Assembly: GCA_024635625.1 (NCBI GenBank)
Contig: JAGXIQ010000035.1
Coordinates: forward strand, 1-64,000
Reading direction: 5' to 3'
DNA from: Loktanella sp.
GTDB lineage: Bacteria > Pseudomonadota > Alphaproteobacteria > Rhodobacterales > Rhodobacteraceae
Length of the DNA: 64,000 nt
This document shows, piece after piece, positions 4,357-20,162 of the stretch (position 1 is the stretch's first letter; every line of letters starts with the position of its first letter). The position numbers were made by a program, and so were the translations under genes. The notes under the pieces were generated by a model. The model saw only the letters and a program-made list of their open reading frames with translations, was not told where the DNA came from and ran no database searches.

Positions 4357-6744
4357 TCAGGTCTGATACCGCTTCAGCACCTTTTCAAGGCTAGCGTCAG
4401 AATAGGGCTTTTCTAAACGTTCTGAAATCAACGCGTGTCCCCCTTCTGGCATGTCGGCATAACCCGTCGCCAAGACAATTGGCATGTTAGGACGGGTCTT
4501 GCGGATTTGCTTGGCAAGTTCGATTCCAGTCATCTTTGGCATCGCCTGATCGGTCAGGACTAGATCGATGTCTGGCCGATTACCAATGGCGATCAACGCT
4601 TCGGCGCCAGAATAGGCGGCGATGACCTCGTGACCCAAGTCTTCCAGAACGCCTATCGTGCCCATCGAAACTAGGATGTCGTCATCCACGGCCAGAATGA
4701 CCATCTTTCGGTTTGGCTGCGCCATCGAAAGTAGGGGGGCGGGCAAAGATGACGCCGGCGTCAGCGGCACTTTCGGTGCTGTACTGGCCGGAAGAAAAAG
4801 CGCTGCGGTCGTGCCTTTGCCGACGCGGCTGGTCAAGGTAAAGGTGCCGCCGGACTGCTTGGCTAGGCCGTGGATCATTGACAGGCCCAGCCCTGTGCCT
4901 TTGCCGACGCCCTTTGTGGTGAAAAACGGTTCCGTCGCTTGGGCGAGGGTGGCGCCGTCCATGCCACAACCGGTGTCGGAAACGGCGATCCGTACATAGC
5001 GTCCGGGCGATAGTTCAGGGACATCATGTCCATCGGCCTCTTGGACGGACACGGTCAGTTGCCCAGCCCCCTCCATTGCGTCGCGACCGTTCACGGCTAG
5101 GTTCAGTAATGCCATTTCGAATTGGTTTAGATCGACGTCGGCGTCAGGTAGATCAGGCGCAATATCGATGATGACTTCGATTTCGGGCCCAATCGTACGG
5201 GATAGCAGATCACGCATTTCGGGAATTGCACGGGCCATGTCGACAGCGACAGAATTCAAATCCTGCTTGCGGGCAAAGGCGAGCATTCGTTGGGTAAGGG
5301 CGGCACCACGTTCAGTTGCCTGTGTCGCATTTTGGATCAAAGAACGCGTCCGGTCATCTGCGTCAATCAGATGACGGCGCAACAGGTCCAGACTGGCCCG
5401 CGTCGCCATCAGAAGGTTGTTGAAATCGTGCGCCACGCCACCGGTTAACTGGCCGATCATTTCTAGTTTCTGACTTTGGCGCAGGGCAGCTTCAGTTGCT
5501 TCCAGCATCTGCGCCCTTTCTATTTGTTCGGTCACGTCGCGCCCAATGGCATAGACCTTTCCGTTCTGCGCGGACGCCGTCCAAGCGAACCAGCGATAGC
5601 TGCCGTCAGCATGTCTGAATCGAAACTCGAACGGTGTGGTTAGCGGAGTCGCAAAAACCGACGTAAATGTCTCGGTGGTGCGCGACACGTCGTCCGGATG
5701 GGCCCAAAGCAGAAAGTTTTGGCCAAGAATCTTGTTGTCGGTCCAACCGAGGATACGGGTCCATGCGCCGTTCAGGTTGGCCAATGTCGCATCGGCGTTC
5801 ACAACGGCGATCAGGTCGATAGCCATGTCCCAAACAACGTCCCTTTGAAGGGTCAAATCTGTGACTGTCGCTTCGCGGGCTTTTACTTCGTCGTCGATGT
5901 CAGTGCAGGTGCCATACCAGCGCATGATGCTACCATCTGCGGCATGCACGGGCTGCGCACGCCCTAACACCCAACGGTACGTGCCCGACCGATGACGCAG
6001 CCGGTATTCGATTTCGTAGGCGTCGCCGGATTCCAAGGACTGCGTCCAAACCGACCAAGCCCGGTCCTGATCTTCAGGGTGAAACATGCCATTCCACGCT
6101 TCACCGTCGGTAGATCCTTCTGGAATACCGGTGAATTCATACCAGCGCTTGTTATAGTAATCGTGAAAGCCGTCCGGACGAGTAGACCAAATCATTTGGT
6201 CGACGGAATCGGCAATGGCGTGGAATTTCGCCTCGCTTTCCCGCAACTGGTTTTCGCGCAGGTGCAATTCGTTCAACTGCGCGCGGGCTTCATGCTGGCG
6301 GCGTCTGGCAGTCAGCGCGGACCGGATGGATCTTAACAGTTCCTCTGCGTGCAGTGGGCGGGACAGCAGGACAGCGTTATTTAAACGCTCGACACCGCGG
6401 CGCGCTTGATCAGACCTGCCGCTGACCGTGCCGTTCGCCAGCACGATAAACGGTATGTCAGACCAAGCCGGTTGTGCGGCGAGGGCTTCGTCCAACACGT
6501 CGTTTCCGGGGCTGGACAGGGCCTCCTCGGTGACGAGAATTGCGCCAACATTGTGATTGATCGCCGCCGCCAAAGTCGCAAGAGAGGGGACGATTATAGT
6601 TGAAATGCCGTCGGCCCTTAAAAGGTCGCTGGCGACGGTAGCATCACGCCCCCGTTGGGCAAAAATTGCCACATGCGTATCCTGCTGTTCATCAGCCGTT
6701 GTCTGATTTCTCAAGGGTGTGGTGGGGTGGTTCAAGATGATCAA
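4357..6744 (-). CDS. Hybrid sensor histidine kinase: N-terminal REC-like domain, PAS domains, HisKA/HATPase, C-terminal REC
   Basis: PAS/PAC (FHAIADSVDQMIWSTRPDG, WYGTCTDIDDEV), H-box GGVAHDFNNLL, HATPase GTGLGLSMIHGL, REC VDDDILVSMG..LVLTDQAMP. Confidence 0.9.
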   Translation of the reverse strand: MIILNHPTTPLRNQTTADEQQDTHVAIFAQRGRDATVASDLLRADGISTIIVPSLATLAAAINHNVGAILVTEEALSSPGNDVLDEALAAQPAWSDIPFIVLANGTVSGRSDQARRGVERLNNAVLLSRPLHAEELLRSIRSALTARRRQHEARAQLNELHLRENQLRESEAKFHAIADSVDQMIWSTRPDGFHDYYNKRWYEFTGIPEGSTDGEAWNGMFHPEDQDRAWSVWTQSLESGDAYEIEYRLRHRSGTYRWVLGRAQPVHAADGSIMRWYGTCTDIDDEVKAREATVTDLTLQRDVVWDMAIDLIAVVNADATLANLNGAWTRILGWTDNKILGQNFLLWAHPDDVSRTTETFTSVFATPLTTPFEFRFRHADGSYRWFAWTASAQNGKVYAIGRDVTEQIERAQMLEATEAALRQSQKLEMIGQLTGGVAHDFNNLLMATRASLDLLRRHLIDADDRTRSLIQNATQATERGAALTQRMLAFARKQDLNSVAVDMARAIPEMRDLLSRTIGPEIEVIIDIAPDLPDADVDLNQFEMALLNLAVNGRDAMEGAGQLTVSVQEADGHDVPELSPGRYVRIAVSDTGCGMDGATLAQATEPFFTTKGVGKGTGLGLSMIHGLAKQSGGTFTLTSRVGKGTTAALFLPASTAPKVPLTPASSLPAPLLSMAQPNRKMVILAVDDDILVSMGTIGVLEDLGHEVIAAYSGAEALIAIGNRPDIDLVLTDQAMPKMTGIELAKQIRKTRPNMPIVLATGYADMPEGGHALISERLEKPYSDASLEKVLKRYQT

Positions 6745-8249
6745 TTCCGACCGTCGCGTTCAAGTGCCATCAAACCATAGCGGTCTGGCGTGTAAATCGG
6801 TGCACCGGACAGGATGCCGGAAAAGCTGCGGATTGGTTCGCCGATGTTAATACCTTGGTTGTCGATACTGAACTCGCGGATTGTACGCTTATGGTCCGAC
6901 GTCCGCGTCTTGACCACTGCGATTGATTTACGCACGATCCCTTCGACTTCAAAAAAACGCATCAGCATGACGGTATCGGCCAGATAGCTGATGTCGATGT
7001 CGGACCGCAGGTCGCCGGTCACGCCATGCTGGCCAAGGATCATTAAAGAGATGACGCCCTGCTGCGCAAGGTAGCTAAGCAACTCGTGCATTTGCAGCAC
7101 GAGAAAGTTGTCGCTGGGCATGGCGTGCAAGTAGGCATTCAGACTGTCGATCACGACGACATCGACGTCATCCGTTTCGACGGCTTCTCGCACCGCGCAG
7201 GCAAATTGACCGGGGGACAATTTCGCCGAATCGATCTGGCGGATAGCAAGGCTGCCATCGTCGATGAAAGGCTTCAGGTCCATCCCAAGCGCCTTGGACC
7301 TGATTATCAAAGTTGAAAGGCGTTCGTCGAACAAGAAATATGCCGCCTTATGCCCGCGTCGCAGGGCCGCAATCATGCATCGAACGGCGGTCGTCGTCTT
7401 GCCTACACCTGCCGGCCCTGCCAGCAAGGCGTTTGTACCCGGAAATAACCCGGACCCCAGAAGCGCATCCAGCCCTACTAACCCTGTCGTGACAGGTGCA
7501 AGAGAAAAGGCGCGATGATGATCGGCGGCAACAAGGCGGGGATAGACGTTGATGCCACCCTTTTCGATTGTGAAATCGTGATAGCCGCCCCGATATCTTA
7601 GTCCGCGCATCTTGATTACACGCAGCAGACGCCGCTCTGCGCCAAAATCGTTCGCGTGTTGTTCAAGCGAGATGACGCCATGGGCGATGAAGTGCAGTTG
7701 CAGATCGCCAGGTTCTGCGGTGCGGTCGTCCAGCATCAGTACAGTACAATTTCGGCGCGCAAAGAAGTGTTTGAGTGCAAGAATTTGCCGCCGATAGCGT
7801 AGCGAATTTTGCGCCAGCAGGCGCAGTTCTGACAAACTGTCTACGACCACGCGAGCGGGATTGGTCGTTTCAACCAGTTCGATGATGCCGCGTACCGTTT
7901 CTCCTAACTCGACCTCGGAGGGGTGCAGCAAGGATTGCTCGTGGTCAGACCCAAATTCGGCCTCTCCGACCATTTCGAACAGGTTGATTCCGTCAAGCTC
8001 CCAACCGTGTGATTGGGCCACCGCCTGAAGTTCAAATTCGGTTTCGGACAGCGTGATATAAAGGCCCGCACCGCCGTTGACACGTCCTTCCATCAGGAAC
8101 TTCGGCGCGAGGGTCGTCTTGCCCGCACCCGGCGTACCCTCGACAAGGTAAAGACGCTCCTGGGTCAGGCCCCCGCCAAGAACTTCGTCCAATCCTTGCG
8201 TGCCAGTCAGCAAACGATGTGCCGGGTTGGTTTCGGTCGTATCCGGCAT
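6741..8249 (-). CDS. KaiC-like two-domain RecA-type ATPase
   Basis: Two P-loops (EGTPGAGKTTLAPKF; AGPAGVGKTTTAVRC) and KaiC-like CII tail (DISYLADTVMLMRFFEVEGIVRKSIAVVKTRTSDHKRTIREFSI). 4-nt overlap with the kinase gene. Confidence 0.9.
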   Translation of the reverse strand: MPDTTETNPAHRLLTGTQGLDEVLGGGLTQERLYLVEGTPGAGKTTLAPKFLMEGRVNGGAGLYITLSETEFELQAVAQSHGWELDGINLFEMVGEAEFGSDHEQSLLHPSEVELGETVRGIIELVETTNPARVVVDSLSELRLLAQNSLRYRRQILALKHFFARRNCTVLMLDDRTAEPGDLQLHFIAHGVISLEQHANDFGAERRLLRVIKMRGLRYRGGYHDFTIEKGGINVYPRLVAADHHRAFSLAPVTTGLVGLDALLGSGLFPGTNALLAGPAGVGKTTTAVRCMIAALRRGHKAAYFLFDERLSTLIIRSKALGMDLKPFIDDGSLAIRQIDSAKLSPGQFACAVREAVETDDVDVVVIDSLNAYLHAMPSDNFLVLQMHELLSYLAQQGVISLMILGQHGVTGDLRSDIDISYLADTVMLMRFFEVEGIVRKSIAVVKTRTSDHKRTIREFSIDNQGINIGEPIRSFSGILSGAPIYTPDRYGLMALERDGRN

Positions 8250-8367: not shown

Positions 8368-9024
8368 CTAGATCGGTGGTAATGCCGTTATTGGCCAGCG
8401 GCTGCCGTCGGGGCGCAGGTTTGCCCGCGCGATCCACTTCTCGCAGATCGCATCGCTTTGGTTGCCGCCGCGCAGCAGAATATGCGTTGGTGCCACTTCG
8501 ACGCAGAAACCGACATGGCCTTTCCAGCTGTCCGGGCTGTCCCGCCAAAAGCAAAGGATCGCGCCGAAACTTGGTGCAACGGCGCGTCCAAACCTTGCCC
8601 ACGCGATAGAGGCATAGGGGTTCGTCGGCAGGGGTTCGGCGGGAAGAGACAAAGCAAGGCAGGTCTGCACGAAGTCCGCGCACCACGGCACCTGTGCGGG
8701 GTCACCCGCCGTGCCGCCATCGCTGGCCAGAAAATCGGTCACCTCGGCATTGTTTAGGGTTTCGTGCATGCCCATCATCTGCGCCGCGGTATCCATCCAA
8801 GGTGTGGCGTCGGGCAGGATGTCAGGCGAAGAAGGGTTCATGCCGAACAGACCTTGCGCCGTAGGCGCGTCGACAAGGCCGGTTACATCTAGTCCAGCTT
8901 CCGATTGATATGCCTTCAGCGCAGCGATTGTCCGACGACCCCGGATGCCGTCCAGCGGACCGGGGTCGAACCCTTGGGTTAACAAGGCATCTTGTACCAT
9001 GCGGGTGGTGATTGGCCCCCTCAT
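8368..9024 (-). CDS. Peptidoglycan-binding domain plus TIGR02594/CHAP-like domain protein
   Basis: MRGPITTRMVQDALLTQGFDPGPLDGIRGRRTIAALKAYQ (PG_binding_1) then VPWCADFVQTCLA...KGHVGFCVEV. ATGA overlap with the upstream gene supports the start at 9024. Confidence 0.75.
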   Translation of the reverse strand: MRGPITTRMVQDALLTQGFDPGPLDGIRGRRTIAALKAYQSEAGLDVTGLVDAPTAQGLFGMNPSSPDILPDATPWMDTAAQMMGMHETLNNAEVTDFLASDGGTAGDPAQVPWCADFVQTCLALSLPAEPLPTNPYASIAWARFGRAVAPSFGAILCFWRDSPDSWKGHVGFCVEVAPTHILLRGGNQSDAICEKWIARANLRPDGSRWPITALPPI

Positions 9025-10850
9025 ATAGAAAACACGCGCTGGGCTTCGAACGCCACGTCGGGGCGACCTACAGTCCAGAAATTCGGCGACTGCCATGATG
9101 GCATGCGCGCCGCGCAACGATCACGGAAGGTGCGATAGCCGTTTTGCGCACCCGGCTCTGCCAAGGTTTCAAGGATTGAGGCGGTGAAAAGTCCGTTGCC
9201 AAGATCTTCTTGGGCCTTCTGGTTCGACTGGCAGGCCGAAAGCTGCAGGACGCTGGCCGCCACTGGGAAACTTAATTCGTGGTAAGGCGTCATCACATTC
9301 GGCCCGACGGTAGAGGAGGGCAGGCTGCGATAAAAGTCCGCGTTTGCGCGATAGACTTGTGCTGCGGTCGCAAGCGACATCATGCGCGTCTTGCCCTGCC
9401 CGGATTGGGGCTGCGCTGCTGGACTGGTGCCTGCCCGCAACATTGATCCAGCGTGACAGCAATCGAAGACCGCCAGAATGCGAACGCCTTCGGCGAAGTC
9501 CGACCAGATCTTGTATAGCTCGTCGTCGATCATCATCGCATCATAAAGGCACAGCGTTTCGTCAAAGAGGTCTTGATCGGGACCGGCTGCTTCATCGTTG
9601 TTGAAATCCTTTACCTGCCCACCGTGCCCCGCATAAGTGAACATGAAGATATCACCGGATTTCAAGCGTTTGGCAGCGTCAGCGCAGACCTCGAATACCG
9701 CATCGCGGGTTGCGGCGTCATCGGTCAGGTGCGTTTGGGATCGAAAGCCCCGGTCAAGTGCGACGTCTCGCATCGCCTCGCTATCAAAGATGCAAAAGTC
9801 GAGATTGATCAGGCCATTGCCATAGTGAACTTGGTCGACATGGTTCAACCCGATATGTAGCGACACCGCCGAAGGCCCCGAAGGTTGGGGCGCGGGCGCC
9901 GGTCCGCTACGTACCCCGGATCGCGCGCCTTTGATCGCGGCCGAGAACTTGGCCGCCACGTCTGCGTAGCCCGCATTTGTTGGGTGCAGTTCGTCATGCC
10001 AACGGGTTCTGGCAACGGTGCCCCTTAGGTCCAGAAAGGTGACATGACGATGACGCCGTGCAAGGGCGGCCATGCCATCGTTAAAGCGATCCATCATAAT
10101 CTTGGCAATGGCGGCTTGCGTCTGGCCGTCAGTAATTCCGTTGGCGGCCATCGGCTTGCCCATCCACTTGCCCTTATTCGGGATCGCAAGGTCGTAGCCG
10201 TGACACAGGATTCGGACCGCGGGGTAGCGGGCAGCGACATCACGATAGATGCGGTCGAATTGCTGCACGGCCACCGCAACAAGCTGGTCAAAGCTGGGCA
10301 GTAGATAGTCGCCCGCCGACAGACCCGGATCAAAACGGCGCAGATGGCGTGACAGGTTGCCATCTGCAACCAGATCGTTACCGCCGCCCGACAGCAGCAA
10401 TATCGTAGCCCCGGTTTGTTCGATTGCGCGACGGTATTCGGCACGGGCCACCATATTAGCCAGTGTGTCGCCCCCGGCGGACAGAGAAAAGATGGCATAC
10501 TCATCCATCAACACGTCAATCGTGTCCCGCAAAAGGATCGGATATTGGAACCAGCTGTCACCTTCCTCGACGATGATCGGCCCCTTATAGTCGCCACGGG
10601 ATAGCCTTTGAAAAAACCGTGCTTGCCGGTTCTGCCGTTCGAACCAATTGGCGCCGTTGAGCAGTACCGCCGAACGTGTGGCGGCATCGTCAGTGGTCGG
10701 AATTTGCACGCGGTCAGGGTTAAGCTTGATCGCGGGCGCAAAGGGGGCAGATGCCTCTTTGTCTTCGATGAAATAGGGTGCCATGTCCTCGGGTTGCGTG
10801 TTCGGATCTGCCATTTTCAGCGAAAGCTCTTCGAGCGTGATCTTTGTCAT
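9021..10850 (-). CDS. SGNH/GDSL hydrolase fused to a caspase-like (peptidase C14) domain
   Basis: SGNH blocks EEGDSWF, GGGND, DELHP; caspase dyad YAGHGGQ and VFDCCHAGS. Confidence 0.85.
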   Translation of the reverse strand: MTKITLEELSLKMADPNTQPEDMAPYFIEDKEASAPFAPAIKLNPDRVQIPTTDDAATRSAVLLNGANWFERQNRQARFFQRLSRGDYKGPIIVEEGDSWFQYPILLRDTIDVLMDEYAIFSLSAGGDTLANMVARAEYRRAIEQTGATILLLSGGGNDLVADGNLSRHLRRFDPGLSAGDYLLPSFDQLVAVAVQQFDRIYRDVAARYPAVRILCHGYDLAIPNKGKWMGKPMAANGITDGQTQAAIAKIMMDRFNDGMAALARRHRHVTFLDLRGTVARTRWHDELHPTNAGYADVAAKFSAAIKGARSGVRSGPAPAPQPSGPSAVSLHIGLNHVDQVHYGNGLINLDFCIFDSEAMRDVALDRGFRSQTHLTDDAATRDAVFEVCADAAKRLKSGDIFMFTYAGHGGQVKDFNNDEAAGPDQDLFDETLCLYDAMMIDDELYKIWSDFAEGVRILAVFDCCHAGSMLRAGTSPAAQPQSGQGKTRMMSLATAAQVYRANADFYRSLPSSTVGPNVMTPYHELSFPVAASVLQLSACQSNQKAQEDLGNGLFTASILETLAEPGAQNGYRTFRDRCAARMPSWQSPNFWTVGRPDVAFEAQRVFSI

Positions 10851-10855
10851 GGGCT

Positions 10856-12805
10856 TTATCCTTTGTGCTGTTGATCGATGGATTTTATCTGCGTCAGATG
10901 TGCCAGTATCCGGGCGTTGGCATCACGATGGGCGATGACATCATGCTGCGTGTAACGTCGGCGGCGCATGTCTGGCGGCTGAACGGCATGATCCGGCGTT
11001 TTGATCTTGTGCAATACGACGCCTTCCAACTCTCCGCCGGGCGCTGTCATGTAGGCCGCGCCAGAGCGTTTCGACGACATGCCGATGAATTGCGCAGACT
11101 CCTTGTTCGCACCCTCGAAGCCATAAAGTACCAGATCAAGGATCGAGCGTGTGTAATGACCGACAGTCAGCTTTCGCTCGAACCCGTAGGATGGCACCCA
11201 AAGCGTGACGCGCCCCGGACCGCGTTCATTGATCTTTTTGATCAACGGCTGGAAGGCCTTTTTGAAAGGTTTCGGCTGAATCGTTGGCGCTATCATGGTC
11301 AAAGAAGACACGGCGCTCAGGAAAGTAGCCCGCTTGTCATTGATATTCTTCAGATAGTTATGAGATTCAAAAGATATGAGATATTGTTCCAGCAGAAGCG
11401 CGCCGGCCCCGTCCAATGTCAGATGCAAGCGCGTTCCCGTGGCTGCAAAGCTGTCGAACAGATCGGCTGCAGCGCCGTCCGCCTTTTGATCCGCGCCACA
11501 TATGTGGCGATGTGGACCGGCACATTCCGCAGCATTTTTAATGTCGCGCCAAAAGGCCCGGCCGATGCCGGATGTGGCGGCCTCGATCTCGGCGTTTAGA
11601 TTGGGGCTAAGGGCGCCGACTTTGTCGACGGCGGTATTGAACAGATGTTCCAGCACGGCGCTGGTGCTTTCGACCATGTCGTTGCACCAGAAAAGTGTGT
11701 AGGGATAAACGCCAACGCCGTCTTCTAGTCCGGGTCTGCGGTCGACCTCGGCACTGAAGGCCGCGTCGATCCCCAGCAATGAACCGGGTAAAGCGATATG
11801 GACCGGGCGGTTCGGTTTGGCCGCGATTTGCTTAGCCGTCAGGGCGACGCTGTCGCGCGAAGACGCGTAGCTGCCACCAGCCACATGTTTGCCGTCATCA
11901 AGATGCGCAAAATGGCCCAGCAACTGATGGCAGGGCGCTGAACCGGCCCGAATGGGGCCATCGTCAAAATTGATACCGCGCCGCGAGTGAGAAAACGTGA
12001 AGGCTTCCGGTGAAGGCACACCGAGTCGCAGGACCCAGGCGTCCAATACGTTTTCCGACCAATCTTCATACGGCAAAAGCGCCACGCCATGCAGCAGTCG
12101 ACCATCGCAACGGTAGCCGCCCCAATCCTTTTCCCATGAATTCAGAACCAGAAATCCGCGGTCGTTGTAGCCTACGATGACGAAGGCGTGGTTCTCTGCT
12201 GATTCCGGTTCAAGAGGAATGCTGCCGTTCACAACGGCCTTCCAGCCGCGATGCGTGGCAGCAGAGACAAGAATGCAATCCGCCTCTGACAAGGCTGCGT
12301 GGTAATCGTTAAGGTAGGACCGTACACGGTAATATGCACCAAGCGTCGTGGCCTTTGCGGCCTTGGCGCGATCTGGCGACAATTCGGTTTCGTGGGCGTC
12401 GTCTGGCCAAAGGGCGTCGTCGCAGATGCCGTGGTGGTAGAAACCCTTGATCACCGACCGCAGCGACGTGACCCCGTCCGAGGCGCTTCCACTTGTCCCT
12501 CGTTCCATCTGTACGGCCATGCGATACAACATGCGGGCTGAAATTTTCGCGGGTCGGCAGTTATCGCCCGCCGCCCAAATCCGGTGCATATCGATCAGAT
12601 TGGCAAGCGCCTGCCCCGCACAGGTGCCGTCCTGCCCCTGCTGGCGCAGTTCGTAGGGCAGAACATTGTGCGGCGGGCAAATGCGCTGGGCCAGAATACG
12701 CTCTGATTCCGGGGCGAGGGGTCGCAGCGATGGTTCATAGAACCGATCGCGCAGATCCGTGGGATCGGCACGCAGCACGCGATCAATGGCGGCGATGTCA
12801 GGCAT
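10856..12805 (-). CDS. Papain-like C1 family peptidase with additional C-terminal domains
   Basis: YELRQQGQDGTCAGQALANLI (Cys), ENHAFVIVGYNDRGFLVLNSWEKDWGG (His and Asn). Confidence 0.8.
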   Translation of the reverse strand: MPDIAAIDRVLRADPTDLRDRFYEPSLRPLAPESERILAQRICPPHNVLPYELRQQGQDGTCAGQALANLIDMHRIWAAGDNCRPAKISARMLYRMAVQMERGTSGSASDGVTSLRSVIKGFYHHGICDDALWPDDAHETELSPDRAKAAKATTLGAYYRVRSYLNDYHAALSEADCILVSAATHRGWKAVVNGSIPLEPESAENHAFVIVGYNDRGFLVLNSWEKDWGGYRCDGRLLHGVALLPYEDWSENVLDAWVLRLGVPSPEAFTFSHSRRGINFDDGPIRAGSAPCHQLLGHFAHLDDGKHVAGGSYASSRDSVALTAKQIAAKPNRPVHIALPGSLLGIDAAFSAEVDRRPGLEDGVGVYPYTLFWCNDMVESTSAVLEHLFNTAVDKVGALSPNLNAEIEAATSGIGRAFWRDIKNAAECAGPHRHICGADQKADGAAADLFDSFAATGTRLHLTLDGAGALLLEQYLISFESHNYLKNINDKRATFLSAVSSLTMIAPTIQPKPFKKAFQPLIKKINERGPGRVTLWVPSYGFERKLTVGHYTRSILDLVLYGFEGANKESAQFIGMSSKRSGAAYMTAPGGELEGVVLHKIKTPDHAVQPPDMRRRRYTQHDVIAHRDANARILAHLTQIKSIDQQHKG

Positions 12806-12859
12806 GATACATGTCCTTGATCTGGGTTGGTGCCGCCCGTTGTCGGACGGCACCTGTCC

Positions 12860-14692
12860 TTAGGCGTGGACGCCACCGGCGTGCATCATCGCCTGCAAGC
12901 TGGTGATTGGAGCACCATTCGGCTGCGGCGCATCGGCCGGCGTCCAGCTATCGAACGCGCCCTGATTGAGGTAGCTTTGCGGGTCTGTTACCAGCAGGCC
13001 AATCAGAGTTTCTGCTACTAGTCTGCTGCCCAAAGCGCCCAGATGCGCGCCGCTGGCAGAGACCTCTGCCTCTTTCAGGACATAGAACCACAGCGGCGTT
13101 GCAGTATCGAAACCACCGGACGTTACGGCGGTTTGCATCGCTTCGCTGCCCTGCGCGATCTGTTCAGGCGACAGTGCCGGGATTCTGATGCCTTTGTCGT
13201 AAAGGCATTTGATCATTCCTTGAGCTGTGGGCAGATTGAATACATAGCCGCGCCGTAGGTTGCGTTCGGCCAAACGTGACATCATCAAGTTGGTGTCATT
13301 ATTTTCTAGACTGTTCAGTGCCAAAGCCAGTCGCGTATCGATGCGGCGTGCCACACGGTTCGCCATTGGCGAGGTGCCGATAAGCCGGTTCCATTCGGCA
13401 ATCCAGTTATCGGGTAGGGTGGGCAAGCCTGCCATTCCGGTGCCACCGGTAAACTGGAACATCTGCCGAAAGGTCGCGCGTCCATCGCCGCCGTCGCTGG
13501 CATCGCGGCCAAAGTTGCGGTTGTAGTCGTAATCCGCCCGCACCATCGAATGGCCATAGCGGTAGGCCGCGATCGAAAATTCCAGCGGCATCGGTTGAAC
13601 ACCTTCTGGGACCCCGTCCTTGTGGGTAGCATAAAACGCCGCGTAAAGTGGTGCCTTGTCAGCTAGCACCTGATCCACAACAGCCGGGTCGCACACCGTC
13701 TTAAGGAACACATTCACGACCAGCCATTGATAAATGTGGGTGACGTGCTGGCGCGCCGTGCGAAAGATGTCGTCGGTGTCAGTCATGCCTTCTGCACGCA
13801 GAGTATCAGCCAGCGCATTGTGCAACCGCAGGATGCTGAGGTGGAACTGAGCCACGATCAGGTTCTCGTCGTTGCGTCCGTCGCCGATCAGCGCAAGGCG
13901 GCGCACGTCCATCTCTGATTTCGACCCATCCGCGTTGAACAACTCGTTCACCTCGTCCATGGTCAGATCGCCACCGTCCACGGCGGCGCCCACGCGGGGG
14001 AGGTCGGCGTGCTCGTCCGCAGGAAGCGGCGGTCGTTCGAATCCAGACGCAGGCGATGATACGGGCGTCACGGTACCCAGCCGCATTCGGGCCGGATCGT
14101 CAGGGTCGCGTAGGGCAGCTTCCAGTTTCAGCGCGGCAGGGCTTTGGCCCGGTCCGTCGCCATATACGCTGTCCAATTCCAGCCGGCCGATCCTTAGGTT
14201 CATCTTGACCGTTTCGGCCAGATCGCGGGATTGGGGCGCAATATCAGGGCGGTCTATATTGAACCCGGCTGCGCTGCTGCCTGGTTGTTCTTCGCGGTCG
14301 GTATTTGCAGTGATATCATGGTCGATAAACTGCCCGAAATAGGTAAAGACCGGCGGCATTGACGATTCACCGTCAACATCCTTCTCGTCAAGGCTGGCCT
14401 CTGCCATGGCATCGGCCAAGGCTTTGATCTTTGCACCAGCCCCGTCGATCTCTGCGACCTCTGCAGCATCCTTGCAGTAGAAGCGGAAAGCCTGCCGGGG
14501 CGCTAAGCCTGGTTCGGGTGCGGGATCGGGGTCCGGCACCGGGTAGGTGTCTGGTCCGTCCATTTGCCGCAGCTTCGTGATGCTCGCTACGTCGCCAAGG
14601 GCGACATAGTCGTTGGGCGCCCGCTGTTGGTCGCCACTGCGAGATTTTGGTGTGGTCGAAATAGTCTGGCCGTGTCCGATTTTATAAAGCAT
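12860..14692 (-). CDS. Animal-type haem peroxidase family protein
   Basis: TYFGQFIDHDIT (distal His), RNDENLIVAQFHLSILRLHNALAD, YRYGHSMVRADYDYN (proximal His). Start set at MLYKIGHGQ. Confidence 0.85.
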   Translation of the reverse strand: MLYKIGHGQTISTTPKSRSGDQQRAPNDYVALGDVASITKLRQMDGPDTYPVPDPDPAPEPGLAPRQAFRFYCKDAAEVAEIDGAGAKIKALADAMAEASLDEKDVDGESSMPPVFTYFGQFIDHDITANTDREEQPGSSAAGFNIDRPDIAPQSRDLAETVKMNLRIGRLELDSVYGDGPGQSPAALKLEAALRDPDDPARMRLGTVTPVSSPASGFERPPLPADEHADLPRVGAAVDGGDLTMDEVNELFNADGSKSEMDVRRLALIGDGRNDENLIVAQFHLSILRLHNALADTLRAEGMTDTDDIFRTARQHVTHIYQWLVVNVFLKTVCDPAVVDQVLADKAPLYAAFYATHKDGVPEGVQPMPLEFSIAAYRYGHSMVRADYDYNRNFGRDASDGGDGRATFRQMFQFTGGTGMAGLPTLPDNWIAEWNRLIGTSPMANRVARRIDTRLALALNSLENNDTNLMMSRLAERNLRRGYVFNLPTAQGMIKCLYDKGIRIPALSPEQIAQGSEAMQTAVTSGGFDTATPLWFYVLKEAEVSASGAHLGALGSRLVAETLIGLLVTDPQSYLNQGAFDSWTPADAPQPNGAPITSLQAMMHAGGVHA

Positions 14693-14895
14693 TGCCGTAG
14701 CCTCCTGATGAAGCCGGATATGGAACGCGCTGGGAAACTGATAAAAATTGGGTGTGCAATACGGCGCGTTAGGATAAAAAATCCGGCGGAAATTGCGTAA
14801 TGTGACGCGATGAAAAGATGCGTCTGGGATCAAAAATGGGTCGTCGTCTTATATGCGGTCGCGCAGCCCTCCTTTCGGGTGCTTTGGGGTGCAGG

Positions 14896-15597
14896 TCAGT
14901 CCTGCAAAATTTGCGTTTTAGAGTGTCGTCCAAAGTCGATCAGACGGTTCATGAGACGATGAATGCCGTCCGCACCGCCGGCCAAAACGATTGAGGTCAG
15001 GCAAATATCGACGAAGGAAAATACATGTGTCTGCAATGGAGGCAGGCCAGAAACTGCGATCTGATCGGCAAAGGCCCCGTGCAACAGTTGAAAACCCGAC
15101 AGGCTAAGGCCAATCCCAAGTGCCAGTGCCGACACTGTAGCCCAGCTTTTCTTCAGCAGGCTCAAATCCTCTAGCTTGCCACGCGTCTCTGCCGCTTGGG
15201 CGGGTAGAAGTTCACGGGCATTCAGCACGCTGTGCCGCAACCCATCGTCTACCAGCGTCATGCGGTCCTGCGGGCTGACCAGCATATCCATGTCGCGGGC
15301 AAGCATCTTCATCTGGGCATGGTTGCGGTCGGCGGCTTGCTTCAGCGGGGCCACGATGGCGATTTCCGCAGCACCAAAACGCCAGTTCAGGATCAACTCG
15401 ACCGCCCGTTCAATCAAAAGAGCGATAAAAAGTGTCGTGGCTAGCAACTCTCCCAATTGGACCAGCGAAACGTCCACCAAATTTAACGAGACAAAGTCCA
15501 GTCGCCCTGCGCCATAGACAAGCGCCAGCGCCAAAACCGCAGCGGCTATTTGAAGGCCTGTCACCGCGCTGATTTGTGAAGTGCCTTGCGCGCTCAT
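14896..15597 (-). CDS. Membrane protein of unknown function (2-3 TM with central soluble helical part)
   Basis: MSAQGTSQISAVTGLQIAAAVLALALVYGAG..LLATTLFIALLIERAVELIL..; ATGA overlap (15594-15597) with the subtilase gene. Confidence 0.7.
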   Translation of the reverse strand: MSAQGTSQISAVTGLQIAAAVLALALVYGAGRLDFVSLNLVDVSLVQLGELLATTLFIALLIERAVELILNWRFGAAEIAIVAPLKQAADRNHAQMKMLARDMDMLVSPQDRMTLVDDGLRHSVLNARELLPAQAAETRGKLEDLSLLKKSWATVSALALGIGLSLSGFQLLHGAFADQIAVSGLPPLQTHVFSFVDICLTSIVLAGGADGIHRLMNRLIDFGRHSKTQILQD

Positions 15598-17132
15598 GAT
15601 CCGGTGTCCTGATCTGGCGAGAAAGACTTCCAGTGGATCGCGGGTTCTGCGCTGGCGTAATCGCCTGTTTTTGTTCCACACAGGGCTGCTTTGGCGGCGG
15701 GACCGAACTGCGCCCCTCCCGGTGTGATCCGCCCTGCGGACATCGCCAGAGATAGCAATCCTGCGGTTAGGGCTGCCGCACCCGAGGTGCCAGAGTACCG
15801 GCAATAGGCAGAGCGGTAGTCCAAGACAGCACCTTCATGCCCGAATATTTGTGCGTTGGGGCTGGAGTTATAACCCGCCCGTCCCGGCACGTCGGTCGAA
15901 ATCAGATCCTGTGTGGCATGGGTACTTACGCCTGTCCCGTTCGACGCTTGTTGGTCGCCGTAGTTGCCCAGACCAGCGGTGTAGGCAATGGAATGGTCGT
16001 TAGGATTGAACCGCGCACTTTGGGTGTCCAGCCGTTGCAGGCGGCTGTCCAAACGTTCGCCATCCCCGCTGGGCGCATAGACAGTGATGTGGTCGGATTC
16101 TGGTGAATAAGCTGCGGGGTTACCGGTTGCGGCACGCGCGCCAACGGCGATGATGCCGTTGTCTGGGGCCGCTAATGACCCGGGGCATAGGATGCTGCCT
16201 TGCGCGCCATTGCCTGCGGCGCACACCACAGGGATACGCTTGGATAAAGCAATTGTCAGGTGTTGTAGGCTATCCCACGCGCTCAACTCTTGGGCAGACA
16301 GTCCGACGCCAAGGGCGAGGCTGAATGCCGTGGCATCCTCTGCCACGTTGTTCGTCCGCGGAATATGCGGCGCGAGGCTGGCGGGGGTCGGAAAGTCGCG
16401 GGCAAGGACAATGATATCCGCCTCTATTAAATCGGCATAGAGCAGGGCAAGGATAAGTTGTTCTGGTTCCGGGTCGAAATTGGTCGAGATCGGAACGATC
16501 TGGCAAAACGGGTCTACCCCGGCATAGGCAAAGGCCACCGCCTGACCCGTCGGCAGGTCGTGATAGGTGCCGCTGACTGGATCAAAGATTCGCACGGGCG
16601 TAACCGCGCTGGCGTCAGGGGCCACCGGACGCGCGCCTATCAGCCCCGCCATTGCCGTGCCATGGGCCGAGAAATTAGGGCTATTGGCTGGTTGAACAGC
16701 GGACGTGTAAAGGGTTTTGGCATCGCCGCGCAGGTGCGCTAACAAATCGTTCCAGTACGCACCTACAGCTGCGGGAAGGTCCGAAGGATAGGCCTTTTTG
16801 CAGGCTTTGATATAGGAATCGAGGGCATCTGGTGACGCTGGTACACCCAGCCGGGACGAGAAGAAGTCAATTGCCAGATCAGTGTCGATCGCGGCCGACA
16901 GGTTTGGGTGGCGCACCGCAACAGAGGTGTCGATCAGGGCCACGCGAGTCCGCCGAGCGCCATCATCAATCCGTGCTGCCGCAAGATCCCATGCCTCAGA
17001 TGCAAAGGTCTGCAAGTCTGCGACTACCCCAATCTGCGCCAGATGCCACAGCGCGTGGTAGGCGGCATAGTCGCCCCGCCCGCGGTCCCGGTCGGATGCA
17101 ATTTCCAATCGTCTGGGTTCTGGGGGGGTCAT
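15594..17132 (-). CDS. Subtilisin-like (S8) serine protease, no evident signal peptide
   Basis: ALIDTSVAVRHPNL (Asp), NFSAHGTAMAGLIG (His), VVCAAGNGAQG (Asn), YSGTSGAAALTAG (Ser). Start by ATGA overlap with the upstream gene. Confidence 0.85.
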   Translation of the reverse strand: MTPPEPRRLEIASDRDRGRGDYAAYHALWHLAQIGVVADLQTFASEAWDLAAARIDDGARRTRVALIDTSVAVRHPNLSAAIDTDLAIDFFSSRLGVPASPDALDSYIKACKKAYPSDLPAAVGAYWNDLLAHLRGDAKTLYTSAVQPANSPNFSAHGTAMAGLIGARPVAPDASAVTPVRIFDPVSGTYHDLPTGQAVAFAYAGVDPFCQIVPISTNFDPEPEQLILALLYADLIEADIIVLARDFPTPASLAPHIPRTNNVAEDATAFSLALGVGLSAQELSAWDSLQHLTIALSKRIPVVCAAGNGAQGSILCPGSLAAPDNGIIAVGARAATGNPAAYSPESDHITVYAPSGDGERLDSRLQRLDTQSARFNPNDHSIAYTAGLGNYGDQQASNGTGVSTHATQDLISTDVPGRAGYNSSPNAQIFGHEGAVLDYRSAYCRYSGTSGAAALTAGLLSLAMSAGRITPGGAQFGPAAKAALCGTKTGDYASAEPAIHWKSFSPDQDTGS

Positions 17133-18040
17133 ACCCATTCCTCTCGCGCAGCTAGCATTTGGTCTTCCAAAACGACCTCGAAAATCGGCGTCATCATACG
17201 GGCTAAGGCGCGGCCTGCAGCGGTGTCCTGCGGATAATGAACGCCAGCCCATTCGCGGTTTTCGGCAATGCGGCGGCCGCTCAGGAAAAGTTCTGCGATG
17301 CCCGGGTGTTCGGGGGCCACGCGGGCAAACACGAAGGCAATCGTATAGGATAGAAACGCATGGTTCGATGGATAGGATGGGTGAACGGGCACTGGGATAA
17401 AGCTGGAAAGCCGCGGGTTGACTGTTGTGGGCCGCGGTGCGTCGTAGCGATCTTTATAGCGTAACCCGATTTCTTCACAAAGGCGGGCAAGGATCAGGAA
17501 CAGTGTCACGGTCTGCGGATAACCGCCCATCTGCGTTAAGCCAAGGGGGCGCAAGTAGCCTGACAGTTCCAGCTCTTGTTCACGCAGGATTTCGGCACGT
17601 CGTATGGTTTCGGCCTCTGTTTGCAGCGCTGCCTGTTTCACAAGCAGACCTTGCGTCTGTTCGAACAAGGCAGCTGGTGACCTTGGCAGATCAAGCGGCA
17701 GGTCAACCCAGAAGTCTCGCAACTGGTGCAGTCGATCGATCTCTCGCCAGGGCAGTAGGATATCTGGCGTCTCACCGCCGAGGGGCGTAGCAGCGTCTGT
17801 CGTTGTGCGGTTTCTGTTACGATTCCTGTTCCTGTTTCTATTGCGGTTCCGGTTTCGATTTCGGTTCAGTAGGGCCGAAGCGCCGCCGCTGCCTGCCGCG
17901 ACAGAAACAAAGGTCGCCGCGTCGAAGGTGCCGCCAGCAGCGACGGGGGAGGTCTGACCGGCGACTGGAACGGCCTCGAAACTTTCCCCAATGGCCAGAA
18001 GCCATGTGCCGGAAAGAAGTTTACTGAACGGATTTGGCAT
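17129..18040 (-). CDS. PAP2 superfamily / vanadium haloperoxidase-like protein
   Basis: KDRYDAPRP, PSYPSNHAFLSY, SGRRIAENREWAGVHYPQD: the three PAP2 motifs. Confidence 0.85.
   Translation of the reverse strand: MPNPFSKLLSGTWLLAIGESFEAVPVAGQTSPVAAGGTFDAATFVSVAAGSGGASALLNRNRNRNRNRNRNRNRNRNRTTTDAATPLGGETPDILLPWREIDRLHQLRDFWVDLPLDLPRSPAALFEQTQGLLVKQAALQTEAETIRRAEILREQELELSGYLRPLGLTQMGGYPQTVTLFLILARLCEEIGLRYKDRYDAPRPTTVNPRLSSFIPVPVHPSYPSNHAFLSYTIAFVFARVAPEHPGIAELFLSGRRIAENREWAGVHYPQDTAAGRALARMMTPIFEVVLEDQMLAAREEWV
17807..17866 (-). repeat. 60-bp in-frame hexanucleotide tract encoding (Asn-Arg)10
   Basis: Reverse complement reads ten AAY-Arg codon pairs inside the PAP2 gene. Confidence 0.97.
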
Positions 18041-19918
18041 CTACTTCGCTCCTGCAATCAAAAGGCCGTCGGTAAGGATCGCCTTGGCTGTCGCGTCGCG
18101 GACTGCCATGCGATCTTCTTCTACCCAAGCCACAGAAAACCCTGGGTCCATGCGATGGATACGATGAATGCAGTCCTGCGCGCCCTTCGTGTCGCCCAGA
18201 TGCGCAAGGCTGACAGAGGTGTAACGCAGGGCCGCGCCGAAATTCGGGCGACGCGACAGGATACGTTGGCCAATGGAACTAGCCGTGTCGAAGTCGCCCT
18301 GCAGTGTTGCGATCATGCAGCGGGTTGTTTCCAGCGTGAATCGGATCGGACTATGTTCGCCAATTTTTAACGCATTTTGTGACGCCCTGCGGGCATCGCT
18401 ATAGCGCCCGTTGTAGACGTGGTGCAGCGCCATGTGGTCCCAGCAGAACGCGGAATGCGGCGACGTGCGGATCGCCCGGTCAAGCAAAGTGTTTGCCACA
18501 TCGTGATTATGCATGATGTAGCCCGTGGCGTGCCCGGCCAGACTGTAAGCAATGCCACCACTTAGCGGTGAGTCCTCTACGTATGCGATCAGGCTACCGG
18601 TGTCGTCGGCCAACGTGGTATCGAAGGAATGCCAATGTTCACCGACGCGAAAGCTGTTCAGATAAGCCAGTAGCGCGGGATATATTGGTTCTTTCGTCAA
18701 ATCCCAGCTGATCCGCAGCGCGGCGCGCAAATCGTCCAACGCCGTATGATCCAGCTGAAACATGGCCGACAGCGCATGAAATGGCGTTAGAGGACCCAAG
18801 TGTGCACGGTCAGCGAGTGTATCCAGCGTGCCTGCGACCCGTTCGATTGCTTCACCCAGCAACACAAGTATTTCTGCGTTGTCGATGCTGGCGCGGTCCA
18901 GCCTGTAAGGCCCTCCCTGAACGCTCCACAGCAATTCTTGTGTGCTATGGCGCAACACCAGTATCCGGATGGATAAATTGCCCTCCGCCTCGTACAGCCG
19001 CAACCGCAGATAAAGGTCGGGGCTGGTTGTTGTCACCGTCGCGTGGTCCATCCCGTCGGTCAGGTCACGGTAGTCGTAAGTCCGCGCACCGACATAGTCG
19101 CGTAGACCAAAGGCGATCCGGTCAATTAGGGCCTCGCCAAGATAGAGCGCCTGATAGGATTTCGAATGTATGACAGGCTCTAGCAGACCCACGATAGGGC
19201 GGATGTCGCGGATCGGTTCTGGTCGGGCCGGTGTCGCATGCGCTGGCGTGGGGGTGGTCACTTCGGCGTCCAATAGCGCCTCAATCCGGTTGTGCCAATG
19301 TTGCCGCTGTTCGCGCAGCCATTCTTCGAAGGGTTCGACGCTGATGTTGATGCCTTCCAGCAGGTCGGGCGGATTAGCGCGGACGTGATCTAGAAGGGCT
19401 GCAGCACCGTCCTGTACGATCTCGATGACATCGACGCTGGCGGCACCGGGTACAAGTCTGACACGGTGGGCGTCGATCTCGATCAGGGGGGTGCCGAAGG
19501 TGTCCAGACTACGTCGCAAGCCATGCAGCGCTGTACGCAGACTTTGGGCGGCCAGTTGCAAGTCCTTGTCGCCCCAGAACAGATCCTGAAGGCGGGCGCG
19601 GGACACACCGGCGTCAGATGCTAGCGCAGCTATAGCCAGCATGGCCTGTTGTTGCGCACTGCGGGGGGTCCGGTCGCGACCGGTCGAATCCGTCAGCCTA
19701 AATGGCCCCAGAAGCGTTAACCGGGCCTGTCTGATGGGCGTATCGCCCGCTGGTCGCGATGCCTGCGACACCTGGAATATCCCCCTGGCGGTCTGTGGGC
19801 GCATATCGTCGCGTTCAGATCGTAGGTAGTTGCGTTGATTTAGGAAAGCGTTTTCGCCGCACAGGACGAAGGTGGAGGGCCCCTGACTTTGAAAATGTGA
19901 AGCAGGATTTGAAATCAC
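18041..19918 (-). CDS. SARP/BTAD-type transcriptional regulator with TPR-like C-terminus
   Basis: Winged-helix plus BTAD (LTLLGPFRLTDSTGRDRTPRSAQQQAMLAIAAL...LQDLFWGDKD..QSLRTALHGLRRSL...EEWLREQRQHW). Likely GTG start at 19918 preceded by GGAGGG; the tracked ATG is at 20029. Confidence 0.75.
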   Translation of the reverse strand: MISNPASHFQSQGPSTFVLCGENAFLNQRNYLRSERDDMRPQTARGIFQVSQASRPAGDTPIRQARLTLLGPFRLTDSTGRDRTPRSAQQQAMLAIAALASDAGVSRARLQDLFWGDKDLQLAAQSLRTALHGLRRSLDTFGTPLIEIDAHRVRLVPGAASVDVIEIVQDGAAALLDHVRANPPDLLEGINISVEPFEEWLREQRQHWHNRIEALLDAEVTTPTPAHATPARPEPIRDIRPIVGLLEPVIHSKSYQALYLGEALIDRIAFGLRDYVGARTYDYRDLTDGMDHATVTTTSPDLYLRLRLYEAEGNLSIRILVLRHSTQELLWSVQGGPYRLDRASIDNAEILVLLGEAIERVAGTLDTLADRAHLGPLTPFHALSAMFQLDHTALDDLRAALRISWDLTKEPIYPALLAYLNSFRVGEHWHSFDTTLADDTGSLIAYVEDSPLSGGIAYSLAGHATGYIMHNHDVANTLLDRAIRTSPHSAFCWDHMALHHVYNGRYSDARRASQNALKIGEHSPIRFTLETTRCMIATLQGDFDTASSIGQRILSRRPNFGAALRYTSVSLAHLGDTKGAQDCIHRIHRMDPGFSVAWVEEDRMAVRDATAKAILTDGLLIAGAK

Positions 19919-20162
19919 AGGGGTCCCTCCTTTATCTTGACGATCAAAATGACGGGCGTGAGACGGCTGAAAATTGCCAGCTGTCCCATGTAAAGGCAGA
20001 CTTTGATCGCGGCGCGCAACGCAGCGCAATGATCAAGGCCACCCGGTGCAAACGCACGATAATGCGCGCATTTGAAAGTTCCGTGACGTCGACCGAAGCG
20101 TGTCCGGTCGACGACGTCCTTTTTACCCCTGACGCTGACCGTGGGAGGATGAACCGGTCGCC

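Follow-up and report, generated by a model that had tools for sequence, protein, structure and literature searches.

An eight-gene mobile cassette of Loktanella sp. joins a conserved regulator-PAP2-protease triad to swappable effectors and may direct regulated self-lysis

An 11.5 kb run of eight minus-strand genes in Loktanella sp. is a horizontally moved cassette in which two modules, A and B, are joined. Module A, comprising a SARP-type regulator, a soluble PAP2-fold protein and a protease, is a conserved triad that is widespread in Alphaproteobacteria, while module B (an animal-type haem peroxidase, a C1 protease, an SGNH-caspase fusion and a peptidoglycan hydrolase) supplies effectors that can be swapped. 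The reading we favour, with a probability of about 40%, is that the whole would be a transcriptionally controlled, proteolytically executed cassette for self-destruction or lysis with swappable effectors; we place it ahead of a stress or metabolic regulon, with anti-phage defence and an exported weapon in joint third place. The window referred to below is the entire stretch of DNA that was analysed (64,000 nt, positions 1 to 64,000 of contig JAGXIQ010000035.1), which belongs to a 3.58 Mb draft genome of Rhodobacterales type.

All eight open reading frames are present and form a single co-directional run at positions 8368-19918. The first gene, which opens module A (18041..19918, 625 aa), encodes a putative SARP/BTAD-type transcriptional regulator with TPR repeats and starts at a GTG codon (19918) with a strong Shine-Dalgarno sequence (AGGAGG). 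It is followed by the gene for the PAP2-fold protein (17129..18040, 303 aa; start at 18040), whose disordered N-terminal tail contains an (Asn-Arg)10 tandem repeat (17807..17866), by that for an S8 subtilase, the partner protease of module A (15594..17132, 512 aa; start at 17132 in a 4-nt overlap, ATGA, with the PAP2 gene), and by that for a small membrane protein with 3-4 membrane segments (14896..15597, 233 aa; start at 15597, overlapping the S8 gene by 4 nt). A non-coding gap of 203 nt (14693..14895, from our reading of the start sites) precedes the ATG (14692) of the haem peroxidase gene (12860..14692, 610 aa). Downstream of it are genes for the C1 papain-like protease (10856..12805, 649 aa; start at 12805 after a 54-nt gap), for an SGNH esterase domain (residues 1-312) fused to a C14 caspase domain (residues 323-609) (9021..10850, 609 aa; start at 10850 after a 5-nt gap) and for a peptidoglycan-binding protein with a CHAP/TIGR02594-like amidase domain (8368..9024, 218 aa; start at 9024 in a 4-nt overlap). 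The first-pass annotation had taken these genes for an apparent operon with 4-nt or near-zero gaps at most junctions. Most junctions do measure 0-5 nt or overlap by 4 nt, with exceptions before the C1 (54 nt) and peroxidase (203 nt) genes, and the 203-nt gap, which lies at the border between modules A and B, divides the co-directional run into two. Scans for promoters and terminators gave results no better than chance.

The gene families named in the first pass agree with Pfam and structural matches, weakly so for the SARP, C1 and CHAP assignments. Pfam is clear for five proteins (SGNH plus C14, An_peroxidase, S8, PAP2 and PG_binding), and the C1 and CHAP scores lie just below their respective cut-offs. 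The regulator has Pfam hits to TPR only, with no BTAD hit in the window protein; we assign it tentatively to the SARP family because it matches AfsR weakly (residues 86-195 of the longer ORF) and its orthologues carry the annotation 'SARP family'. SARP proteins, which are defined by a winged helix together with a BTAD domain, are transcription activators. For the S8 protein (Pfam Peptidase_S8), the motif alignment shows the catalytic D/H/N/S intact. Lactoperoxidase is the closest solved relative of the peroxidase (Pfam An_peroxidase), in which the distal Gln/Asp/His, Arg-x2-Glu and the proximal His are all present and GQFIDHD, GRNDEN and RYGHSM are kept across 13 homologues save for conservative changes. 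The best PDB match of the AF2 model of the C1 protein is xylellain, itself a C1 protease, and its active-site motif is intact by comparison with papain. In the C-terminal domain of this protein (10856-11905), DGAGA stands in place of the nucleophile motif GHSAGS, which is kept in Rhizobium leguminosarum 248 (L037) and replaced by EGAGA or similar in most relatives. The domain is probably an alpha/beta-hydrolase-like pseudo-enzyme that has lost its nucleophile Ser, a label drawn from motif similarity to L037 that a fold search did not confirm.

The SGNH-caspase protein matches Pfam Lipase_GDSL_2 and Peptidase_C14; the solved structure nearest to its C14 domain is GSU0716 (PDB 3bij), and the His-Cys dyad is intact (YAGHGG and DCCHAGS, 14 homologues aligned). 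A second, unrelated C14 caspase gene, with a 565-aa frame and a higher Pfam score than that of the cassette, lies on another contig of the host genome (C101, L001). The peptidoglycan protein combines Pfam PG_binding_1 with a weak CHAP match and is TIGR02594-like. As first reported, the active-site motifs of the peroxidase, S8, C14, C1 and PAP2 proteins are complete where checked, and the protease and peroxidase proteins appear to be without signal peptides, a hydrophobic N-terminus being found only in the membrane protein among the eight (by a crude hydropathy test, not SignalP). None of the eight gene products has an NTPase domain by Pfam, and no nuclease is encoded by the cassette according to the ORF list and Pfam. 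The membrane protein matches no Pfam family; outside the window a homologue was found in Loktanella atrilutea only, and a plasmid search with this protein as query returned zero matches. Its candidacy as a YLATT relative was rejected for lack of a Pfam match. In R. leguminosarum 248 (L037, 9267-16899), genes for a C1 protease, a membrane-anchored trypsin, a lysozyme-like protein, YLATT (PF20303) and an SGNH-caspase are clustered, and a link of this cluster to YEATS/YLATT systems is possible.

The run is more than a chance juxtaposition, because the whole unit is found again in two further genomes, where the flanking DNA is unrelated. DNA homology to L. atrilutea (L033), at 72%, begins at 8393 and ends at 19930, the outer gene ends, and in this comparison the flanks of the cassette show no matching DNA. 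The third copy lies on plasmid pTHAF1_a of Palleronia sp. THAF1, where it spans the plasmid origin; in this strain the right-hand ABC-transporter flank of the window is on a chromosome contig and not beside the plasmid cassette. Among the genomes found, these three alone hold the full set of both modules, the Palleronia copy being without the membrane protein. The co-occurrence on which the first pass had made its proposal depend is thus seen, in three genomes. A single eight-gene system is not supported, as the two modules mostly occur apart. Enrichment in defence islands, which was also to be checked, is absent from the flanks of relatives, where the genes are mostly metabolic, and neither a secretion system nor an adaptor or immunity gene was found in or near the cassette in the three full copies. 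Directly downstream of the cassette in the window (4357-8249) lie overlapping genes for a KaiC-like double-ATPase and a PAS hybrid histidine kinase. This pair is absent beside the L. atrilutea cassette and has no close homologue in two genomes of the same genus; it was rejected as the sensor of the system because it is not conserved with the cassette.

Neighbourhoods were annotated for homologues from about 300 Rhodobacterales genomes, with simple gene calls made for this analysis. Every locus found via the S8 gene has the order SARP, PAP2, S8 on one strand; for the first 15 module A loci, which were found through S8, linkage to S8 is by construction, while the searches of class and phylum used PAP2 only. 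A protease lies directly downstream of PAP2 in 45 of 49 SARP-linked loci (window-type S8 in 21, long S8 in 18, Peptidase_A4 in 5 and M24 in 1), with no identified protease in the other 4. The SARP-linked PAP2 cores form one clade (98% SH-aLRT) in a tree built without the repeat, on which we count 5 changes of protease class, 28 of repeat unit and 3 between basic and non-basic units.

Some triads have further neighbours. Downstream of the triad in two Rhizobium loci (L111 and L213; pRL12 RL_RS36050-RS36030) come genes for a putative peptide-modification protein with HEXXH, for a ThiF adenylyltransferase and for a small protein; the arrangement resembles a RiPP-type pathway attached to the triad. 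A second example of a peptide-modification neighbour occurs on a Rhizobium plasmid (L039, 7231-20016), where a BTAD regulator, YcaO, TfuA and small genes precede a 1716-aa SGNH-S8 protein. After triads with TGV or AGV units and a long S8 (L202, L203) comes a protein that is similar to the C-terminal portion of the haem peroxidase. In L088 and L090 a peroxidase gene, divergent from module A, is followed by one for an alpha/beta-hydrolase-trypsin or trypsin-NucA-S8 protein.

PAP2-fold enzymes have as substrates phosphate esters or, with vanadate, halides. In the AF2 model of the window protein the core has a pLDDT above 90 and residues 28-90 fall below 50, and Foldseek places class A acid phosphatases nearest, ahead of vanadium haloperoxidases, the two groups having the same active site. 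This soluble fold has the K-x6-RP, PSxH and R-x5-H motifs of class A acid phosphatases, with Lys196, Arg203, Ser225, His227, Arg262 and His268 all present, and enzymatic activity is predicted.

The tail before this core, overlooked in the first pass, contains (NR)10 in the window, its 10 units being encoded in 8 DNA versions that are all synonymous. Perfect repeats of 2-5 residues in a disordered N-terminal tail are present in 49/49 SARP-linked PAP2 genes versus 1/11 other PAP2 genes (Fisher p about 1e-10), in a set obtained by PAP2 profile searches of class and phylum with linkage assigned by rule, where the profiles include the repeat columns and may slightly favour repeat-bearing matches. 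The sole exception (L207) has SARP-like ORFs nearby, and several of the other ten have signal peptides. The units are NR, NK, SR, SK, NRG, LHKS and LHKG in the clade of the window; outside it they are TGN, AGN, NTG, TSN, GSF, NSF, GGF, GGA, SGGA, SGA, SGV, TGV, AGV, NAE, TAM, GNQ, QTQ, AGR, DAR, DGM, EGGG, GL and GGNWF. In rhizobia the copy number varies modestly and the unit is fixed. General low complexity of these genomes was rejected as the source of the repeats, since at least 5 perfect short repeats occur in 18 of the 828 genes of the fetched loci and 17 of these 18 are PAP2s. Recent slippage was rejected as well, the codons being scrambled inside perfect protein arrays: neighbouring units show 842 DNA differences across 466 units, every one synonymous, a count that expresses protein-level constraint and not an exact probability because array borders were set by perfection. 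Conserved possession of a perfect short tandem repeat whose sequence is repeatedly replaced is a very unusual protein feature. In this case it is linked to a single type of regulator, a single enzyme fold and a neighbouring protease whose class changes, in Alphaproteobacteria and beyond.

The unit contains R or K with 21/21 window-type S8 partners versus 2/28 others (p 6e-12), an association that is not independent evidence of co-evolution because it represents essentially one clade. What survives this caution is that, within the S8 clade, units were replaced several times and a basic residue was always retained; outside the S8-1 clade the repeats are mostly without basic residues. With only about 5 changes of protease class, the data are too sparse for a strong test of whether the repeat follows the protease. 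An Arg/Lys tripwire for S8 was rejected as a general rule. The S1-pocket position is non-acidic in the alignment, so that the S8 proteases do not look Arg/Lys-specific, and many tails are non-basic (TGN, GGF, GGA, SGV); for both reasons the repeat cannot in general be a set of basic cleavage sites. Homotypic contact via a shared repeat unit was also rejected, as 0/109 partner proteins carry the same unit as the tail. Prokaryotic caspases cleave after positively charged residues (PMC6426788), and cutting of the window's (NR)10 by a caspase is possible.

The repeat may have one of two roles, as a protease-read element or as a condensate or anchor segment. Our tentative and somewhat doubtful proposal for the first is that the triad would be an undescribed system family in which the PAP2 array is read by its cognate protease: the perfection of the array would be conserved and its sequence not, the unit would change with the protease or be constrained by it, and cutting or binding would switch the enzyme or a death programme. 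Should the array be read in this way, nature would offer an evolvable pairing of protease and substrate, and a new means of gating an enzyme. The second role belongs to an account that we consider unlikely, in which module A would be a stress or metabolic regulon whose SARP protein controls a cytosolic acid-phosphatase/haloperoxidase-like enzyme, module B having been added in a few strains; the tail would be a low-complexity stretch that serves as an anchor or forms condensates, and the protease would act in turnover. Such a regulon is consistent with the stable metabolic surroundings of the rhizobial module A copies, with the absence of defence enrichment, and with a tail that is disordered in the model and falls into chemical types that are usual for low-complexity domains (NR/SR/SK, GGF/GSF, GGA/SGV, TGN/GNQ). 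However, a generic turnover role leaves unexplained a protease of changing class in 45/49 loci, and a low-complexity anchor would not require identical units throughout.

The genes of module B are differently combined in relatives: PEROX-C1-SGNH/C14 (L046), SGNH/trypsin-PEROX-C1 (L059-L061), PEROX-SGNH/M10 with a separate caspase-like gene (L054) and C1-SGNH/C14-M15 (L047-L053). The C1 homologue is beside an SGNH gene in 13 of the 18 other genomes that have one, and a peptidoglycan hydrolase is again present in C1-SGNH clusters. Overall, the partners of the SGNH module are C14, C14-M15, trypsin, trypsin-NucA, trypsin-EEP and M10; its fusions include trypsin-NucA (L034, L057), trypsin-EEP (L055, and in other order L040) and a long S8 (L039). 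Trypsin-NucA proteins also adjoin SGNH or peroxidase genes in L056 and L090, where they match the NucA-trypsin conflict systems of PMC7159879, and an SGNH gene in L058. The trypsin and trypsin-NucA partners link the SGNH module to proposed conflict systems and, by the trypsin-NucA architecture, to LypC. On pSymA of Sinorhizobium meliloti M162 (L036, 12179-31899), a cluster of TIGR02594 amidase, C1 and SGNH-caspase genes has a cGAS-like nucleotidyltransferase/ThiF/patatin set and VapBC within 20 kb, and on a Roseivivax plasmid (L043, 6625-13806) a 2393-aa uncharacterised ORF is divergent from a trypsin-C1 fusion.

CHAP/TIGR02594 proteins cleave peptidoglycan, and haem peroxidases generate oxidants. 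If the cassette serves self-lysis, the SARP protein would sense an internal signal and switch it on, and all products would remain in the cytosol. The proteases, with S8 leading, would then target either the repeat tail or the enzymes made alongside them; the (NR)10 of the window offers a series of Arg sites at which the caspase, too, could cut. This proteolysis would release phosphatase, esterase, oxidant and protease activities, after which the peptidoglycan hydrolase and the membrane protein would assist lysis of the cell. Proteolytic activation and protease-driven lysis are proposed here by analogy with two described cases (PMC12799240 and PMC13236601). We count in support of self-lysis the whole-cassette homology without flanks, the plasmid copy, the repeats in 49/49 and proteases in 45/49 loci, the repeat identity kept under synonymous DNA change, the swapping of effectors, the LypC architecture of trypsin-NucA neighbours, the renewed presence of a peptidoglycan hydrolase in C1-SGNH clusters and the preference of prokaryotic caspases for positively charged residues. 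Against it stand the lack of a sensor NTPase in the cassette, the non-acidic S1-pocket position of the S8 proteases, the mostly non-basic units outside the S8-1 clade, the small number of genomes (three) with the full set, and flanks that are metabolic, also around the rhizobial copies, unlike typical defence islands. The role in regulated cell death or immunity that the first pass proposed is likewise putative. The eight genes would add a case in which the triad controls a set of caspase, papain, subtilase and animal-type peroxidase, which bears directly on the way in which swappable parts are put together into bacterial systems of programmed death.

Anti-phage abortive infection, in which a phage would trigger the cascade and the host cell would die, strikes us as distinctly improbable. 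In relatives, the caspase, trypsin-NucA and SGNH fusions are similar to defence pairs of nuclease and protease and to caspase-nuclease loci (PMC12799240), and in Sinorhizobium no more than 20 kb separate the C1-SGNH-caspase cluster from the cGAS/ThiF/patatin set and VapBC. However, the flanks of relatives are not defence-rich, a sensor component is lacking and no PADLOC model fits, the search returning only a generic caspase hit, in line with the initial statement that no known system matches. We give an equally low probability to an exported multi-enzyme weapon that would leave by a non-Sec route (a phage-like particle, a contact-dependent system or a few lysing cells) and attack neighbours: the targets are broad (protein, ester, phosphate, peptidoglycan, oxidant), signal peptides are absent and a prokaryotic GDSL-amidase-caspase fusion has been termed a destructive weapon (PMC3501461), but the three full copies lack the export and immunity genes that were sought.

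Among described systems, the NucA-trypsin 'System 3' (Kaur et al. 2020, PMC7159879) is likewise alphaproteobacterial, with several peptidase classes per operon and exchangeable effectors that include papain-like and peptidoglycan-degrading domains. Extra effectors of this kind are found in the cassette (S8, C1, C14 and PG/CHAP) and are swapped in its relatives, in two of which (L034, L057) the SGNH protein is fused to the trypsin-NucA pair of System 3. In contrast, neither domain of the System 3 core (NucA endonuclease plus trypsin-like peptidase) is found by Pfam in the cassette proteins, both occurring in SGNH-module relatives; the cassette is also without EAD1 and a STAND NTPase, and has instead the SARP, repeat-PAP2, peroxidase and caspase. 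In Caulobacter, cytosolic proteases of LypABC drive regulated cell lysis, as proposed for the cassette, and lysis requires the protease activity of LypC, a protein of trypsin-NucA architecture (PMC13236601). LypC-like proteins adjoin SGNH genes in cassette relatives (L056, L058). The cassette differs from LypABC in its SARP regulator, as opposed to the repressor CdxB, and in lacking the NLR/ATPase component; the NLR-like ATPase and CARD-like adaptor of LypABC/CARD-NLR systems have no counterpart in the eight genes, which are without an NTPase domain, and the adjacent KaiC is not conserved.

Canu and nuclease-protease pairs (PMC12799240) share with the cassette a protease of exchangeable class and a co-encoded enzyme as its proposed target. 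In the cassette, which encodes no nuclease and thus no caspase beside an MBL-fold pro-nuclease, the partner is a PAP2-fold enzyme and not a metallo-beta-lactamase-type nuclease, and the proposed gate is a repeat tail and not an active-site loop. The GDSL-amidase-caspase fusion of Chitinophaga pinensis (PMC3501461) likewise joins a bacterial esterase to a C14 caspase, but it is a single survey protein for which no SARP, peroxidase or PAP2 context is described. With class A acid phosphatases and vanadium haloperoxidases of the PAP2 superfamily, the cassette PAP2 has in common the fold and all active-site residues; it differs in having no signal peptide and in its second motif, which is an SNH or SGH variant, while its SARP-linked clade is set apart by the obligatory N-terminal repeat tail. 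No description of the triad or its repeats was found in the literature searched, which comprised 5.39 million open-access papers. Taken by itself, module B would count as a variant of the multi-peptidase conflict systems already published, whereas the triad is apparently of an undescribed kind, since the nearest described kinds each fail a defining feature.
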